Positions 3,317-38,041 of a stretch of DNA of 64,000 bases are shown here, in pieces. Each line of letters begins with the position of its first letter. Within the stretch, counting starts at the first letter, position 1. A program made the translations under genes and the position numbers. The stretch lies in NCBI RefSeq assembly GCF_015482765.1, contig NZ_JADMLB010000070.1:1-64000 (forward strand), read 5' to 3'. The DNA comes from Halodesulfovibrio sp. Lineage in GTDB: Bacteria > Desulfobacterota > Desulfovibrionia > Desulfovibrionales > Desulfovibrionaceae. Under the pieces are notes generated by a model, which ran no database searches, was not told the origin of the DNA, and was given only the letters and a program-made list of their open reading frames with translations.

Positions 3317-4504
3317 ATGAAACAATTAATTCTCAAAAAAGGTGAAGACCGTCGTATCCGCCTCGGTCACCTCTGGATTTTCAGCAACGAAGTAGACACA
3401 AAAAAAAGCCCGCTCAAAGAGTTTGAACCGGGTGAAAGCGCTGTTGTTGTAAACGCTCAGGGACGTCCAATCGGCTCAGCATATGTGAACCCAAATTCTC
3501 TTATCTGCGCCCGCATGATCAGCAATCGTCCTCATGAAGGACTTTCTGAAGCACTGCTCGACAAACGTATTTCTCAGGCACTTACCCTGCGCGACTCAAT
3601 GTTCGACAAGCCATTTTACCGTATGGTTTTCGCAGAAGGTGACTTCCTGCCGGGTCTCGTAATCGATCGTTACGATGATCTTCTTGTAGCCCAGCTCACA
3701 ACAGCCGGCATGGAAAAAATGAAAGATCAGATTACATCTGTTCTGTGCGATATTATGCACCCTAAAGCAATTCTCTTCCGTAACGACTCTGCAAACCGCC
3801 CTCTGGAAGGGTTGGATCGTTATGTTGAACAAGCGGTAGGCACTGTCCCTGCTAAAGTTGCTATCGAAGAGAATGGCGTTAAATTTGAAGTTCCGATGAT
3901 CGAAGGTCAAAAGACGGGCTGGTTCTATGACCAGCGCACGAACCGCCGTGACTTTGCATCGTTCTGTAACGGCAAACGTGTTCTTGATGCGTTCTGTTAC
4001 GCTGGCAGCTTCGGCTGTAACGCAGTCAAAGCAGGTGCGAAAGAAGTTACGTTCCTCGATGCTTCCAAAATAGCTCTTGAAGCTGCTGTGCACAACGCAG
4101 GGCTGAACGGCTCACCGGACAAAGTTGATACCGTCTACGGAGATGCTTTAGATACATTGCAGGAGTTAAAAGATTCTGGCGCACAGTTTGATGTCATCTG
4201 CGTCGATCCGCCAGCATTTATCAAACGCAAAAAAGCGTTTAAAGAGGGACTCTCAGCATACCAGCGTGTCAATAAACTCGCTATGGACCTTGTGGTTGAT
4301 GGCGGTATTGTTACCAGCTGTTCCTGTTCACAGCACCTTAGCGCTCAGGACTTGAACCGCGTTCTTCTTCACGCAGCTTCCAAGTCCAAAACACGCATCC
4401 AAACCCTCATTCAGGGTCATCAGGGTCCAGACCATCCTGTTCACCCTGCAATGCCAGAAACTCACTACCTCAAAAGCTACACTGTCCGCGTGTTCAAAAG
4501 CTAA
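3317..4504 (+). CDS. Class I SAM-dependent rRNA methyltransferase (RlmI-like, PUA domain)
   Basis: Predicted 23S rRNA cytosine-5 methyltransferase of the RlmI/COG1092 type. An N-terminal PUA-like RNA-binding domain (about residues 1-75) is followed by a linker domain and a Rossmann methyltransferase. SAM motif I reads VLDAFCYAGSFGCNAV, the acidic motif II end is VTFLDAS, motif IV is VDPPAFIKRKK, and the cysteine motif is CSCSQHLS. The frame is open from 3206, but the first 37 codons look non-coding; the ATG at 3317 begins MKQLILKKGEDRRIRLGHLW, the usual family start, with AGGAAA upstream. The result is 395 residues. The exact target base cannot be told from sequence. Confidence 0.9.
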   Translation: MKQLILKKGEDRRIRLGHLWIFSNEVDTKKSPLKEFEPGESAVVVNAQGRPIGSAYVNPNSLICARMISNRPHEGLSEALLDKRISQALTLRDSMFDKPFYRMVFAEGDFLPGLVIDRYDDLLVAQLTTAGMEKMKDQITSVLCDIMHPKAILFRNDSANRPLEGLDRYVEQAVGTVPAKVAIEENGVKFEVPMIEGQKTGWFYDQRTNRRDFASFCNGKRVLDAFCYAGSFGCNAVKAGAKEVTFLDASKIALEAAVHNAGLNGSPDKVDTVYGDALDTLQELKDSGAQFDVICVDPPAFIKRKKAFKEGLSAYQRVNKLAMDLVVDGGIVTSCSCSQHLSAQDLNRVLLHAASKSKTRIQTLIQGHQGPDHPVHPAMPETHYLKSYTVRVFKS

Positions 4505-4598: not shown

Positions 4599-5507
4599 CT
4601 AATCAAAGGTGGTATCCGGCATAACCACAGCCTTTCCGTCTTCTATGCGCACATCAATGGAGTATACAGTATCTGGATCTCCATGATGATCAAACACAAA
4701 ACGAACTTCTTCAAACGGTGAAAGAAGTGGTAATTCATCAAGGCTTCTTATCCGAAGATTATGTCCGTCCTGAACGTATATTTCTTCTTTTTCAGCAGCA
4801 GCACGTGCAGTCTTTTCGATCTGATCCCGTGATATCTGAGGCTGTACAGAAGGGTTCAGCGGATATTTTTTACCGTCATTTACCATCACATGCTGAACAC
4901 CTTTACTGGTAATAATCAGGTCATTCCAGCCGTTTGTTTTTTTCTCGAAAACAAATACTGGTGGTTCAGATACTGTAAAACGAGATAGTTTTTTCCCGTC
5001 AGCTGAAAACAAAAATGCTGTACATCCTCCAGAACCGCAAAAGTACGGATCCTGAATCAAAACAAACAATTCTGCTTTCCCGTCACCGTTCAAATCATGT
5101 TCACCATACTTAAACGGAGTACGATCTTTTGGCATTTCAGCTTTTTCAGGAGCGAAAACCTGTTTTTCAACAAGTGCATACACATCTTGCTCAGAAAATT
5201 GCGGAGCTACTTTTCCAGCTGCTTTAACAGCGCTGGATGTTTTCGTATCCTTTGCTGAACTATCCTCGGGCTTATTCTCTTTAACAGATTGATCTGGTGT
5301 ACTCTTATTTTCGATGACAGTAGACGTCCCTGTCTTACCGGCACTATCCTGTTGATGAGAGCTCTCAGGAGAAATTGACTCCGCCGGCGCTGCCGTTGTT
5401 GCGGGTTCAGCAGGCTTTTCCGGTGCTGAATCACAACTTACAAGAGCAAGCTGAAGCAGCAGTGCTGCAACGATCCAAACCAAAATAAACATGTTTCTCT
5501 GTTTCAT
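4599..5507 (-). CDS. Putative lipoprotein with low-complexity linker
   Basis: A predicted 302-residue exported lipoprotein of unknown function. The ATG at 5507 has GGAAG five bases upstream and starts a lipoprotein signal peptide (MKQRNMFILVWIVAALLLQL followed by ALVSC, with Cys as the lipidated residue). Residues 25-100 are Ala/Pro/Glu/Ser/Thr-rich and likely a flexible spacer. The globular part contains DLNGDGKAELFVL, a calcium-binding-like loop of the FG-GAP/EF-hand kind, and a CGSGGC motif. A longer reading from 5711 adds 68 residues without signal-peptide character, so I reject it. It stands alone, convergent with the methyltransferase. No enzymatic motif is visible. Confidence 0.75.
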   Translation of the reverse strand: MKQRNMFILVWIVAALLLQLALVSCDSAPEKPAEPATTAAPAESISPESSHQQDSAGKTGTSTVIENKSTPDQSVKENKPEDSSAKDTKTSSAVKAAGKVAPQFSEQDVYALVEKQVFAPEKAEMPKDRTPFKYGEHDLNGDGKAELFVLIQDPYFCGSGGCTAFLFSADGKKLSRFTVSEPPVFVFEKKTNGWNDLIITSKGVQHVMVNDGKKYPLNPSVQPQISRDQIEKTARAAAEKEEIYVQDGHNLRIRSLDELPLLSPFEEVRFVFDHHGDPDTVYSIDVRIEDGKAVVMPDTTFD

Positions 5508-25167: not shown

Positions 25168-26535
25168 CTACCCGCGCACCGCTCTGACTGCAAACTGGCA
25201 TGTCATATCCTGCCAGCCGACAAAGCCCATCGATGCACTCACAAACCATGCCGCCATATACGACTTTGTATCGCACGTCCAGAGTGTATCCTGAGCACTG
25301 TCCAGAAGCTGAGGCACACAAAAGGCTCCAAGCTCCGGTGGTTCCTGCACTAGTGACGATAATTCATCCACAGTAGGTAATTTCCAGTCATTGTAGCCAG
25401 CAAATTTATTTTCATTCAGCCCTGCAATATAGTCATGGGCTTCTTCCCATGTACATGCAAATTCGCTGCCGGACTGCTGCCACATTTTTCCTGTAGCGGC
25501 ATCCGTCACGGTTCCGTCTTCATTGTCCACGATATCTGCCATCCCCGCACAATCCGGACGCCATAAGGAATCCAGCCGGAACGTCTTCTGCGCATCATGG
25601 AGACGAACCTTCAACGGCTCTGTGCGCAACGCTGGGGCGTCTGTCGGGCACGGCTGCGTTTCCGCAAACTCATCAATAAAACGGCATTCATTTTCTACCC
25701 GTTCCTGCCATTTTTCTACCAGCACATCCAGAGCAAGACGCATTTCTTTTGCTGTTGCAAAGCGTTTTTCCCGATCATACGCCATTGCTGTGTCAAAAAA
25801 CGCATCCCACTCCGCATCAAGATCAAGAGAATACTGGCTGGCACGCGGAACGATATTATTTGTATACAGAGCTTCGTCCGTAGGCAACACCCCTGTGAGC
25901 ATTCTGTACAACATAACACCCACAGAAAAAATATCTGCTCTGCCGTCTACACTGTCCGGTGCAGCTTCCTGCTCGGGCGCAGCATAGTATGGTGAACCGA
26001 TACGCTCGCCCTTGGCGGCTGAGGTCGGCATCATTTCACCACGAAGTCGGGATAACCCGAAATCAATCAGCTTTATTTCATCAAGCCCTGTAATCATCAG
26101 GTTGAACGGCTTAACATCTCTATGAACAATGCCTGCCTGATGCATACGGTACAAGGCATCCAGAGTCTGGGAAGCATAAGAAACTGCGGTGGTAAGCGGC
26201 AGTTTTCGTGTCGGGGCTTCCACCCTGTAACTTTCTCCGATTACCATACCGAGGTTACGGCAAAAATACTCCATGATGAAAAAAGGAGTACCGTCTGCCA
26301 CATCGTAATCCCAAATGGCTGCGATGTTCGGATGATCCAGTTTCCCCATTATGCGCGCTTCTGCTTCAAAACGGGCAACAAGCTCTTCCTCGTCAACCAA
26401 AAGCTCCATCATATCTGACGGCTTCAGCACCTTAAGGGCAACTATGCGTCCGGTCACAGGCTGGCGGGCCTTAAATACAGCCCCCATGCCGCCTCTGCCC
26501 AGCAGGCCGCACACCGTATAACGTCCAATTTTCAT
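25168..26535 (-). CDS. Ser/Thr protein kinase with C-terminal DUF1566 domain
   Basis: A 455-residue Hanks-type kinase without a transmembrane segment. The kinase domain (about 5-265) has the P-loop LLGRGGMGAVFKARQ, the lysine in VALKVLKP, the catalytic loop IVHRDVKPFNLMI, LIDFGLSRL and YYAAPEQE, so it should be active. A linker of about 60 residues follows. The C-terminal 120 residues match the DUF1566/Lcl type (VDNEDGTVTDAATGKMWQQS, then WKLPTVDELSSLV), a C-type-lectin-like fold usually found outside the cytoplasm. The gene follows a metallophosphoesterase by 16 bases, so the pair may act oppositely on the same targets. Confidence 0.92.
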   Translation of the reverse strand: MKIGRYTVCGLLGRGGMGAVFKARQPVTGRIVALKVLKPSDMMELLVDEEELVARFEAEARIMGKLDHPNIAAIWDYDVADGTPFFIMEYFCRNLGMVIGESYRVEAPTRKLPLTTAVSYASQTLDALYRMHQAGIVHRDVKPFNLMITGLDEIKLIDFGLSRLRGEMMPTSAAKGERIGSPYYAAPEQEAAPDSVDGRADIFSVGVMLYRMLTGVLPTDEALYTNNIVPRASQYSLDLDAEWDAFFDTAMAYDREKRFATAKEMRLALDVLVEKWQERVENECRFIDEFAETQPCPTDAPALRTEPLKVRLHDAQKTFRLDSLWRPDCAGMADIVDNEDGTVTDAATGKMWQQSGSEFACTWEEAHDYIAGLNENKFAGYNDWKLPTVDELSSLVQEPPELGAFCVPQLLDSAQDTLWTCDTKSYMAAWFVSASMGFVGWQDMTCQFAVRAVRG

Positions 26536-33749: not shown

Positions 33750-34199
33750 TGTATCTCCCTGTTTTTCGAACGTAATTATGTGGTGTTGCCACCATATCCG
33801 AAACAGCAAACGGTAACAACATGACTCGACAATCATCCGTTTACTTTTTGAAAAAAGTGACAACACCACTTTTTACACATTTTGCTCATTTTTTAAAAGC
33901 TAAAGCACAACTAATTAGAATAATACAACACCTGAGTGTAACCGCTTTTTAGTCCTTTTTATGTAACCCAAGTCACAGTTTGCAGGGCTTTGAGAGCGAT
34001 TTTCACCTCAATGTAAGGCTCAATTAGTGAGTAATCAATCACGTTTACGAAACTCTGAGGTATGAATTTGTGCGTAAAAAAAATACTCCATACAATTCAA
34101 CAGGCTAAGCTGTGGATAACATGTGAATTTACCCTAAATTTACAACTCCATACTTGATGCAAAACAGGCTTTTTGTTAGCTCTTGGGCACCCAAAGAAT
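33750..34199. other. Control region between the exported-protein gene and the nrdD riboswitch
   Basis: There is no gene in 450 bases. It should hold two divergent promoters. A consensus DnaA box is at 34111-34119. Long A and T runs occur around 33845-33900 and 34075-34085. I could not find a pair of NrdR boxes by eye. Confidence 0.5.
34111..34119 (-). promoter_or_regulatory. DnaA box upstream of nrdD
   Basis: TGTGGATAA is the reverse complement of TTATCCACA, the high-affinity DnaA box. It lies about 90 bases before the cobalamin aptamer and 400 before the nrdD start. DnaA is known to regulate a ribonucleotide reductase operon (nrdAB) in E. coli. A single box can occur by chance in a window this size, so the function is unproven. 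Confidence 0.45.
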
Positions 34200-34340
34200 A
34201 CTCCTTCAGGAGCCGAAAGGCGCAAAGGAAATCCGGTAAAAATCCGGTGCGGTCCTGCCGCTGTAATCTTACTCTTGTTTTATGAAGCAGCCACCCACGG
34301 CGCGTACAGTAAGAAAGCCAGCCCCCTTCCTGAAGCCCTA
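34200..34340 (+). promoter_or_regulatory. Cobalamin riboswitch upstream of nrdD
   Basis: The conserved aptamer core is readable: AAAGGAAATCCGGTAAAAAT followed by CCGGTGCGGTCCTGCCGCTG and TAA, then GCAGCCAC and a B12-box-like AAGCCAGCC. The arms CTTCAGGA (34204-34211) and TCCTGAAG (34328-34335) form a perfect 8-pair closing stem. A GCC-GAAA-GGC hairpin sits at 34212-34221. A TACCGGT/ACCGGTA hairpin (34339-34363) follows and may be part of the expression platform, but no strong T run is present. Cobalamin riboswitches normally switch genes off when B12 is plentiful. Confidence 0.88.
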
Positions 34341-34519
34341 CCGGTATAAGCGTACAACCGGTATTTAATCACAATAATATAACCTGTGCCTGCGTATGTA
34401 AGGGTTCTGCCGTTGCGTACACACATCAGGCTGCAAGATGTCGAATTGCTATCGCAACGCATGCGTTCTTTTCGTGTGCCTTTCTTTTGCCATGCACTTT
34501 TATGACGTCCGGAGTTGTA

Positions 34520-36589
34520 ATGCCCAAACAGATTCTCAAGCGAGACGGTTGCATCGAAACTTGGTCCCTCGAACGAATTGCCCAAGCTATCCTCAAAGCA
34601 CTCAAAAGCAGTGGTATCAAAGACCCACTTCTTTCCAAAAGACTTGCACGCAAAGTTGAAGAAAAACTTGCAAATGTAGAAGCTCCTGAACAAGAGCAAG
34701 TACAAGACACTGTTCAACAAGTACTCATGGAAGCTCGCTTGTACGCTGTAGCAGAGCGTTACATTATTTACCGTGAAAAACGCCGCGAAATGCGCACTCA
34801 AGATCAGGCTTACTTTGACGTTTCCAGCATGATCGAAAGCTACCTTGACCGTAGCGACTGGCGCGTTAACGAAAACTCCAACATGGGTCACTCATTTCAG
34901 GGTCTTATCCTGCATATGGCTGGTTCTGTTCAGGCTCGTTACGTGCTCGAAAAATACCCGGAAGAAATCCGTCAGGCACACACCCACGGGTACTTCCACA
35001 TTCACGATCTTTCCTTCGGCCTCGCCGGTTACTGCTCCGGCTGGAGCCTGCGTGATCTGCTGCTTGAAGGTTTCAACCTTGAAGGTCGCTGCTGCTCAGC
35101 ACCTGCAAAGCACTTTGATTCCGCATGCGGTCAGATTGTAAACTTCCTCGGTACCCTGCAGAACGAATGGTCCGGCGCACAGGCATTCAACAACGTTGAT
35201 ACCTACCTTGCTCCGTTCATCCGTAATGACAACCTCGATTACCCGACTGTTCGTCAGCAGATTCAGAAGCTTGTTTACAACCTGAACACCACTTCCCGTT
35301 GGGGCGGCCAGAGCCCGTTCACCAACTTTACTTTTGATATGGTTGTTCCTGCTCATATTGCAAAAGAACCTATCATCATCGGCGGTGCATTCCAGGATAC
35401 TACCTACGGTGACTACCAGAAAGAAATGGATATGATTAACCGTGCGTTCCTCGAGGTTATGCTCGAAGGCGACGCAGACGGCCGTATCTTCTCTTTCCCT
35501 ATTCCTACATACAACGTTACCAAAGATTTTGACTGGGATTCCAAACCGGCTCAGCTTCTTATGGAACTTACTGCTAAATACGGTGTTCCGTACTTCCAGA
35601 ACTTCATCAACTCCGACCTTAATCCGGAAGATGTTCGTTCTATGTGCTGCCGTTTGCAGATGGACCTTCGCGAAATCCGCAAAAAAACCGGCGGCCTCTT
35701 CGGCGCGGGCGACCTCACCGGTTCCATCGGTGTTGTTACCCTGAACCTGCCTAAACTTGCTTACCTTGCGCACAACGAAGAAGACTTCCTCGACCTCGTT
35801 GAAGAATACGCAGAAATGGCAAAAGAATCTCTCGAGTTCAAACGCAAACTTTGCCAGCAGAACCTCGAAGCAGGCATGTTCCCGTTCTCACGCCGTTACC
35901 TCAAAAACGGGTACAAAGGTCACTTCTCCACCATCGGTCTCATCGGTGGTCACGAAGCATGCCTCAACCTGCTTGGTAAAGGTATCGAGTCTGAAAGCGG
36001 TCTGCGCCTCATGCGTCGTGTTCTCAACCACCTGCGCGCTCTTACAGTGCGTTTCCAGGAAGAGACCGGCAACCTGTACAACCTTGAAGCAACCCCAGGT
36101 GAAGGCACTTGTTACCGTCTGGCAAAAACAGACAAAGACCTCTACGCGGACATCGTTTCCGCCGGTAACGAAGTTCCTTACTACACCAACTCCACCCTGC
36201 TTCCAGTAGGTCTTACAAGCGACGTATTCTACGCTCTTGAGCACCAGAATGAGCTTCAGACTCTGTACAATGGCGGTACCGTATTCCACTCCTTCCTCGG
36301 CGAAGCAGTACCGGAACCGGAAAGTGTAAAGAACTACCTCATCAAAGCGATGACAAATACCAAAATTCCTTACATCTCCGTAACTCCTACCTTCTCCATT
36401 TGTAAGGAACACGGCTACATCAACGGCGAACACTTCAACTGCCCTACCTGCGGTAATGAAGCTGAAGTATACACCCGTGTTGTAGGCTACTACCGTCCGG
36501 TTAAACGCTGGAACAAAGGTAAACAGGAAGAATACCGTCAGCGTCAGGAATATGCTCTGACTGCACTCACTGATTGCAGCTGCGGTTAA
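34520..36589 (+). CDS. nrdD: Anaerobic (class III) ribonucleoside-triphosphate reductase
   Basis: Oxygen-sensitive glycyl-radical enzyme that makes deoxynucleotides. It has 689 residues. An ATP-cone allosteric domain occupies about 1-90 (QILKRDGCIETWSLERIAQA). The barrel follows, then the zinc site CKEHGYINGEHFNCPTCG, and the radical glycine in RVVGYYRPV, Gly656. The ATG at 34520 (MPKQILK) has GGAG five bases upstream; 11 further codons are open to 34487. The activase gene nrdG is not adjacent and must lie elsewhere. Control by the cobalamin riboswitch implies that this B12-independent enzyme is spared when B12 is available, presumably because a class II enzyme takes over (inference). Confidence 0.96.
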   Translation: MPKQILKRDGCIETWSLERIAQAILKALKSSGIKDPLLSKRLARKVEEKLANVEAPEQEQVQDTVQQVLMEARLYAVAERYIIYREKRREMRTQDQAYFDVSSMIESYLDRSDWRVNENSNMGHSFQGLILHMAGSVQARYVLEKYPEEIRQAHTHGYFHIHDLSFGLAGYCSGWSLRDLLLEGFNLEGRCCSAPAKHFDSACGQIVNFLGTLQNEWSGAQAFNNVDTYLAPFIRNDNLDYPTVRQQIQKLVYNLNTTSRWGGQSPFTNFTFDMVVPAHIAKEPIIIGGAFQDTTYGDYQKEMDMINRAFLEVMLEGDADGRIFSFPIPTYNVTKDFDWDSKPAQLLMELTAKYGVPYFQNFINSDLNPEDVRSMCCRLQMDLREIRKKTGGLFGAGDLTGSIGVVTLNLPKLAYLAHNEEDFLDLVEEYAEMAKESLEFKRKLCQQNLEAGMFPFSRRYLKNGYKGHFSTIGLIGGHEACLNLLGKGIESESGLRLMRRVLNHLRALTVRFQEETGNLYNLEATPGEGTCYRLAKTDKDLYADIVSAGNEVPYYTNSTLLPVGLTSDVFYALEHQNELQTLYNGGTVFHSFLGEAVPEPESVKNYLIKAMTNTKIPYISVTPTFSICKEHGYINGEHFNCPTCGNEAEVYTRVVGYYRPVKRWNKGKQEEYRQRQEYALTALTDCSCG

Positions 36590-36670: not shown

Positions 36671-38041
36671 CTAGTTTTTCAAACTATGGATCGGTGCAGG
36701 AATACGTCCGCCTAGGTTGATAAACGGCTCTGCGTTACCACCCGGAACAGCCATAATCTGCGCTTCACCCAGAAGACCGCCGAATGAAACGTTATCTCCC
36801 ACGCCTTTGCCCGGAACAGGAATGATACGTACAGCAGTTGTTTTGCTGTTGATCATACCGATTGCCATTTCATCGGCAATAATACCGGAAAGGGTTGAAG
36901 CGGAGGTGTCGCCCGGTACTGCTACCATATCAAGCCCTACAGAGCAGACACTTGTCATGGCTTCGAGTTTTTCCATGGTCAGCGCGCCTGAAGCAGCGGC
37001 TGCCGCGATACTGGAGTCTTCTGATACCGGAATAAAGGCACCGGACAATCCACCCACATGAGAGGATGCGAACGCGCCGCCTTTTTTCACTGCATCGTTG
37101 AGCATTGCCAGTACTGCGGTGGAACCCGGAGCACCGATTGAGGACAGACCGATGGCTTCAAAAATTTCACCAACGGAGTCACCTACCTCCGGTGTCGGAG
37201 CCAGAGAAAGGTCTGCTACACCGAACGGCAGGCTGAGACGTTCTGCCACTTCTTTACCGATAATTTCGCCCACGCGGGTTACTTTAAATGCGGTACGTTT
37301 AATAACTTCTGCAATATCCCCGAGACTTTTGGCACTGCCGTCCTGCACTGCGCGGTCAATGGCTTTTTTAACAACGCCGGGACCGGAGACACCCACGTTG
37401 ATAACCGCTTCCGGCTCACCCACACCAAGGTAGGCACCAGCCATAAACGGTACATCCTGCGGAATGTTGGCAAAAACAACAAGCTTGGCGCAGCCAAGTC
37501 CGTCTTTATCCGCGGTACGGCTTGCAATGTCTTTAATGCGCTGACCCATAAGCGCCACTGCATCCATGTTAATACCGCTTCTTGAAGACGCAACGTTAAT
37601 TGAGGAACACACGCGCTGCGTAACTGCCAATGCTTCCGGAAGAGAATCAATAAGAGCACGATCGCCTTTGGTCATGCCTTTCTCTACCAGTGCACCGAAA
37701 CCGCCGAGAAAATCTACGCCGGCTTCCTGAGCTGCTTCGTCCAGAATCTGACACGCTTTTACCATCTGTTCCGGCGTGTATGATGCACAGACAACGCCCA
37801 TAGGGCTTACACTGATGCGTTTGTTAACGATAGGGATACCGTACTTGTCGCCCACTTCATTACAAGTAGCCACAAGCTTTTTTGAATAATGTCTGATCTT
37901 GGTACGAACCCGATCTGCAAACACGTCAAAGTCGTGGCTTGCACAGTCAAAAAGGCTGACACCAAGGGTTACGGTACGAACATCCAAATGCTCGTTTCGG
38001 AGCATTGCCAGCGTGCTGAGCACTTCGCGATCTGAAAGCAT
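36671..38041 (-). CDS. UPF0210 / PFL-family protein
   Basis: A 456-residue cytoplasmic protein of the UPF0210 family. It has long Gly/Ala-rich conserved blocks such as [63 protein letters not shown] and [12 protein letters not shown]. The family is structurally related to pyruvate-formate-lyase-like proteins, but no glycyl-radical motif is present, and its biochemical role is unknown. The gene follows an ACT-domain gene by 86 bases on the same strand. The same pairing (UPF0237 ACT protein with UPF0210) is widespread in Firmicutes and archaea, which suggests a conserved two-protein unit. Confidence 0.92.

Follow-up and report, generated by a model that had tools for sequence, protein, structure and literature searches.

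Background

B12-elements before nrdDG, the genes of the class III anaerobic ribonucleotide reductase, were described in 2004 for Desulfovibrio vulgaris and Desulfuromonas, with the B12-dependent class II reductase NrdJ in all genomes treated, and B12 control of nrdDG with NrdJ as the alternative enzyme was proposed (PMC545781). In Propionibacterium acnes, cobalamin riboswitches are annotated on both nrdAB and nrdDG (PMC3848588). More generally, one category listed for cobalamin regulons comprises the isozymes of B12-dependent enzymes (PMC3766115). The read-out by a kissing loop between L5 and L13 has been shown by mutation for the leaders of Priestia megaterium metE and A. halodurans cobT, and the published L5 consensus is UCCCG (PMC10653944).

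The locus analyzed here lies in a stretch of 64,000 nt, referred to as the window, from Halodesulfovibrio sp., a halophilic sulfate reducer. A preliminary description of it had treated a class III reductase as an unusual target of a cobalamin riboswitch. Given the nrdDG control proposed in 2004 (PMC545781) and the annotation in P. acnes (PMC3848588), the target as such is not new. The oddity of the locus is rather that only one of two nrdD copies is switched and that the B12 box of this switch is partly altered.

Aptamer identification and coordinates

In an Rfam covariance-model search, the cobalamin riboswitch family RF00174 is matched over the full length of the model (1-189) at positions 34191-34347 of the forward strand, with 34.5 bits against a gathering threshold of 31.5 and an E-value of 4.6e-5, the search space being the entire window and 4227 families. 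No other match in the window reaches gathering level, and the 3' end of this one lies 172 nt upstream of the nrdD start at 34520. The search thus bears out the cobalamin riboswitch that the preliminary description had read upstream of nrdD, and the interval 34200-34520 is indeed the leader of this gene, with the ATG at 34520 and the Shine-Dalgarno sequence CGGAG, retained in the aligned leaders, at 34510-34514. Single-sequence folding is not unusual (z -1.09), so the evidence for a riboswitch comes from the family model and from relatives. The same element is found 5' of the orthologous nrdD in 9/9 surveyed genomes of the genus, the window's own included; five of these score above the gathering threshold, and the four below range from 25.8 to 30.7 bits, with E 0.012 or better. 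In the genome as a whole, which is assembled in 81 contigs and 99.97% complete, RF00174 is matched twice, by the window element and at C10:62353-62525 (99 bits). The latter precedes a cbiK-like frame (NF047852, 210 bits, below the cut-off of 400), which is followed by a frame that appears permease-like by eye.

The preliminary description had regarded the aptamer core, the B12 box and the closing stem as readable. This applies to the closing stem CUUCAGG/CCUGAAG (34204-34210 with 34329-34335), which is clear in the alignments, and to the P4/P5 core, but only to half of the B12 box (34316-34329). AGCCAG at 34316-34321 is intact; in the RF00174 alignment the consensus GAGACCUGCC is expected next, where the window has CCCCCUUCC, with pyrimidines in place of the J6/3 purines. 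The region reads CAG-CCCCC-UUCC. Measured against a B12 box of the AGYCAGGAGACCUGCC type, AGCCAG and the closing strand are retained and the J6/3 purines are absent (AGCCAGCCCCCUUCC). The element is filed as a divergent RF00174 member because the curated score is reached although the B12 box is half canonical; judged by these sequence features, the leader is a genuine but divergent member of the cobalamin riboswitch family.

The P4 hairpin loop UAAAAAU (34237-34243) deviates from a UGCAAAU-like consensus and varies between closely related species in both length and sequence. An assignment of this loop as L5, which would have meant that L5 is lost, was dropped, since the UCCCG consensus (PMC10653944) puts L5 at 34253-34257, where the RF00174 alignment has UCCUG.

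Conservation of the aptamer RNA

Sequence identity was compared over the six closest species, with the 298 four-fold degenerate sites of nrdD as neutral reference (0.63). The two P2-P5 core blocks reach 0.99 and 1.00, the 5' part of the B12 box 0.97 and the closing strand 0.93. Values of 93-100% against 63% at neutral sites point to strong selection on the aptamer RNA, with J6/3 apparently relaxed: identity is 0.73 there (four columns only), 0.71 in the stretch over the P4 loop (measured at 34235-34241) and 0.52 in the P6 arm. A decayed riboswitch that has kept its structure and lost B12 sensing, leaving this nrdD copy constitutive or otherwise controlled, is a rather unlikely reading. It would fit the low scores in the six closest species (25.8-36.7 bits) and the nearly neutral divergence of J6/3 and of the P4 loop stretch; the near-identity of the other core blocks argues against it.

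The J6/3 segment contacts the ligand. A first control of this position comprised 31 strong switches, namely the 30 top-listed loci of the family search, which are biased to canonical switches, and the C10 switch of the genome itself; J6/3 is purine-rich (GAAGACC-like) in 24/24 of those lying elsewhere than before nrdD or nrdGD. For a second control, 14 further non-nrdD switches were taken, eight from the genus and six from the genus group g8. The purine pattern fits 12 of them, the remaining two being AGCCAGAAGACG and, clipped by the match end, AGCCAGAAGAC, and the J6/3 purines are retained in all 14. With the C10 switch included, J6/3 is purine-rich in 15/15 other switches (genus 9/9, g8 6/6 examined). 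Among 61 nrdD switches of the family, the pattern fits 43, three of them only with C for a purine. The 18 that are off the pattern, L120 by a single base, fall into three genus groups: nine belong to this genus, seven to g8 and two to g36. Within the genus, J6/3 of the nrdD switches is pyrimidine-rich in the window and variable even between close species. Since this segment is altered and variable here but retained in the other switches of these genomes, the nrdD element may bind B12 weakly or differently, or not at all.

That each genome of the genus keeps J6/3 in its other switch is in line with decay of the nrdD element. It would also suit a variant aptamer, in which the changed J6/3 accommodates another upper ligand or corrinoid form, or a molecule linked to deoxynucleotide supply. 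The confinement of the off-pattern switches to three genus groups, with the purines kept elsewhere in the genus and in g8, speaks for such a variant, which is nevertheless distinctly improbable: a ligand preference would here be read from sequence, L5, P4/P5 and AGCCAG remain near-canonical, and J6/3 differs even between close species, which relaxation explains as well as a new specificity.

Leader and expression platform

A probable promoter, TTGATG and TAGCTC spaced by 17 nt (34154-34182, forward strand), was recognized by eye; a consensus promoter scan did not call it. TTGA and TA are retained in nine leaders, and identity among the six species is 0.82 compared to 0.66 just upstream. The transcript would then start at about 34189, at the 5' end of the aptamer.

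Downstream of the aptamer, three hairpins are predicted. Hairpin I (34339-34363, UACCGGUA with ACCGGUA) shows one compensatory pair among the six species and hairpin II (34383-34430) shows two; a few alignment cells are unpaired, among them the innermost pair of hairpin I in the window itself. Hairpin III (34437-34509) has a nearly invariant outer helix, GAUGUC/GACGUC, whose 3' end adjoins the Shine-Dalgarno sequence, and in L070 and L073 a different but complementary helix is predicted at this position. Inside hairpin III lies a weak terminator-like hairpin, GCAUGCG..CGUGUGC with the tail CUUUCUUUUG (34459-34489). Similar hairpins were found in the congeners by the same search, which gave 12 hits in the 61 switched leaders versus 3.9 expected from shuffles. 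If wider loops are allowed, they are found in 9/39 leaders of the window's clade and unplaced rows (1.0 expected) and in 0/22 of the remaining leaders (0.5 expected). An intrinsic terminator is thus plausible as the platform in this genus; that most nrdD leaders of the family gave no such hairpin in this search counts against the mode of control proposed below.

A candidate L13 partner of L5 is CAGG at 34427-34430, contained in a possible P13 stem (34423-34427 with 34437-34441) identified by eye. CAGG alone was rejected as evidence for a kissing loop, since it also pairs within hairpin II, and co-variation was used instead. Ten leaders with four different L5 loops were compared, six of them being close relatives that share one L5. 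The longest L5 complement has a mean of 4.0 bases at the own site and of 2.2 bases over 58 pairings with a foreign L5. It comprises four bases in the six closest leaders, five in L073 and L202, and three (CGG) in L067; for L070, the script scored a three-base match off site, and CGG is present at the site by eye. The result speaks for an L5-L13 kissing loop, and the joint change of L5 and its presumed partner is a point in favor of a live switch and against decay.

Hairpins II and III share sequence with the candidate P13, and the kissing stem would compete with both, so that a switch is possible; no sign of control could be read from the leader sequence. That P13 would compete with hairpin II as well as with the hairpin III outer helix also suits activation of nrdD by B12, and an activating corrinoid riboswitch exists in A. 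halodurans cobT (PMC10653944). The published nrdDG proposals and the logic of NrdJ as alternative enzyme, however, favor repression (PMC545781; PMC3848588), which makes an ON switch highly improbable.

The nrdD paralogues and their genomic context

The target gene (34520-36589, forward strand) encodes a class III anaerobic ribonucleoside-triphosphate reductase of 689 aa, with 1047 bits to NF006126 (cut-off 548) and 549 bits to TIGR02487. The nearest named NrdD, from Halodesulfovibrio spirochaetisodalis, is 99% identical. Near the C-terminus, the protein carries RVVGYY, presumably the glycyl-radical motif, and Cys 628, 641 and 644, common to both paralogues of the genome, which we take to be the C-terminal cysteine pairs of NrdD. 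There is no adjacent nrdG, and the next gene (36671-38041) is on the opposite strand. Elsewhere in the window, a protein-kinase-like frame with a C-terminal extension was noted by eye (25168-26535, reverse strand).

A second full-length NrdD is encoded at C67:10447-12480, directly downstream of nrdG (C67:12527-13078), whose product is the only match to TIGR02495 over the cut-off in the genome. This nrdG-nrdD pair (C67:10447-13078) has no switch: neither of the two RF00174 matches in the whole genome lies there. The arrangement is constant in the genus, as the nrdG coding sequence reaches the start of the second nrdD in 9/9 genomes, the own included. At 50 alignment columns the window-type and nrdG-linked copies differ, each being fixed within its set of nine. 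Cys203 and Cys531 occur in the nine window-type proteins and in four orthologues from other genera, including the switchless L206, and are absent from the nrdG-linked copies compared and from the distant switched group; a functional difference between the NrdD paralogues is possible.

The genome encodes a class II NrdJ on contig C75 (NF006417, 1209 bits; TIGR02504, 730 bits). As it is the only PF02867 protein in the genome, class II is present and a class I reductase was not found. Two proteins exceed the TIGR00379 (CobB/CbiA) cut-off, which makes B12 synthesis likely. A TIGR00244 match is absent from the genome, the same search being positive in 9/14 control genomes; the usual reductase repressor NrdR thus seems to be missing.

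The preliminary description had named the lack of a covariance-model match or of a B12-dependent reductase as what would speak against it; the match and such a reductase are both present. Its view that B12 would silence the class III enzyme is not supported as it stands. Since a second complete NrdD, located beside the only clear NrdG, is free of a switch, silencing by B12 could reach one class III copy and not the class as a whole. A B12-isozyme switch in the strict sense, with every B12-independent isozyme under a switch, is likewise excluded by the C67 nrdD, yet the window switch may act in this manner for one copy.

Distribution of switched nrdD copies in the family

NrdD was searched for in 149 genomes of the family, of which 142 gave a match at E 0.001 or better and 98 one over the cut-off. 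The survey counts rest on the best 150 NrdD places listed, with 147 upstream regions examined; in the three places outside the 147 (G016, G032:C66 and G118), nrdG lies between the switch and nrdD. Among the 147 listed regions, nrdG is immediately upstream in 84 and not in 63. RF00174 is matched in 61 of the 63 listed copies without adjacent nrdG, in 57 at or above the gathering threshold and in four below it (L056, L059, L060 and L073/L122, E 0.012 or better). The two misses are G093, which matches a sequence profile of the other aptamers, and G111, which does not. Against the 84 listed nrdG-linked regions, the profile gave one match (G036); these regions extend only about 230 nt beyond nrdG, and six of them were run against Rfam. 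When longer flanks were taken for 20 named nrdG-linked loci, part of them in neighboring families, a switch before nrdG was seen in three.

A rule that nrdGD operons carry no switch is overturned by G036, by the three operons with a switch before nrdG and by the 3/20 loci with long flanks. The lack of a switch on nrdG-linked copies holds for the position immediately upstream of nrdD and for the present genome, which was searched as a whole. As some nrdGD operons have a switch, the paralogue rule is not strict, and the switch is found mostly, not only, on the nrdD copy without nrdG. Of the 98 genomes represented among the listed places, 50 combine a switched copy without nrdG with an nrdG-linked copy lacking an immediately upstream switch. 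The corresponding Fisher p of 1.4e-39 derives from an uncorrected 0/84, ignores relatedness and is not relied on.

In a quick tree of 79 NrdD proteins, 24 switched orthologues of the window gene and two others form one clade (support 99). Within the clade, L202 (Halodesulfovibrio) has a similar element by eye without a match at gathering level, and for L206 (Salidesulfovibrio) no element was found by eye or at gathering level, which would agree with decay. Distant NrdD rows (group T) are also switched, so that gain or retention of the association happened more than once.

Several loci have additional cobalamin riboswitches. In L038 (3796-3998, reverse, and 4237-4426, forward) and L039 (642-831, reverse, and 1070-1271, forward), two of them point away from each other on the two strands, and one of the two reads into nrdD. 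In L216 (Desulfovibrio sp. UBA6079), a second one (4858-5064, forward) lies downstream of the switched nrdD.

A TIGR02504 (NrdJ) match is present in 59/61 genomes with a switched copy, but also in 128/149 overall, and the co-occurrence is weak evidence. Two genomes of another genus, G048 and G140 (L295 and L296), each assembled in one contig and 100% and 99% complete, carry nrdD switches of 53.7 and 51 bits (L134 and L118); no class I or II reductase was recognized in them with PF02867, TIGR02504 or the divergent NrdJ of a congener, by searches whose loose first look could miss some. Such persistence of the switch counts against the mode of control proposed below, would fit a role beyond a class II stand-in and is in favor of a variant ligand. 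Genus group g8 contains a divergent protein resembling NrdJ, about 870-900 aa long (L281 1-2607, reverse, in G007; L290 in G117), which scores only about 404 bits against TIGR02504 (cut-off 399.95). In G025, G032 and G143, the NrdJ match is split in two within a frame of 1119-1156 aa, the pattern expected from an intein.

Proposed mode of control

With the RNA family, the gene, its second paralogue, NrdJ, the selection on the core and the co-variation of L5 with its presumed partner as observed, the window nrdD is probably an orphan copy repressed by B12 through its riboswitch leader, which supplements the unswitched nrdG-nrdD when B12 is scarce. The cobalamin-family riboswitch would open a leader of about 330 nt of an nrdD paralogue without its own nrdG. 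With plentiful coenzyme B12, the aptamer would fold and its L5 loop would dock on the L13 loop of the platform. Expression of the window nrdD would then fall, by early termination or by a block of ribosome entry, and deoxynucleotides would be supplied by the B12-dependent NrdJ. Under B12 scarcity, the window NrdD would also be made and presumably be activated by the NrdG encoded with the unswitched nrdD. The switch would thus boost class III capacity under B12 scarcity and not turn class III on and off.

A more far-reaching proposal is a variant cobalamin fold in Halodesulfovibrio and two further genus groups, whose altered J6/3 senses another corrinoid or deoxynucleotide demand and tunes one NrdD paralogue. 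It is a long shot.

The basic logic, in which B12 lowers a B12-independent reductase, is an old proposal. The locus matters for other reasons. With a switched and an unswitched NrdD occurring naturally side by side in the same cell, the benefit of the switch can be tested directly. The same gene carries related aptamers that have or lack the usual J6/3, which, together with canonical ones elsewhere in these genomes, allow the need for J6/3 to be tested. Switch-bearing genomes without recognizable NrdJ question whether a class II stand-in is the whole reason for the switch. In the open-licence PubMed Central literature, no report was found of paralogue-specific B12 control of nrdD or of J6/3-variant nrdD switches.

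Comparison with known systems

The atypical switches of Mycobacterium tuberculosis metE and ppe2 resemble the window element in that a cobalamin riboswitch controls a B12-independent isozyme (metE); the excerpted text describes their B12 boxes as agreeing with the consensus, which that of the window does not (PMC11260477). The leaders of P. megaterium metE and A. halodurans cobT share the L5-L13 read-out, with L5 UCCCG compared to UCCUG here; their kissing loop was tested by mutation, whereas for the window it is proposed from sequence co-variation (PMC10653944). P. acnes, like the window genome, has a cobalamin riboswitch on class III and NrdJ in the genome. It possesses classes I, II and III as well as NrdR, in contrast to the window genome with no class I and no TIGR00244 match (PMC3848588).

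The closest systems are the nrdDG genes of D. vulgaris and Desulfuromonas, with Desulfovibrio among the hosts. They agree with the window in the RNA family, the enzyme class, the presence of NrdJ and the proposed logic (PMC545781). The window differs in that its target is nrdD without nrdG, that the nrdG-nrdD pair is unswitched and that the B12 box is non-canonical. The second nrdD copy and the altered box, neither mentioned in the excerpted text of PMC545781, are features of the window genome.
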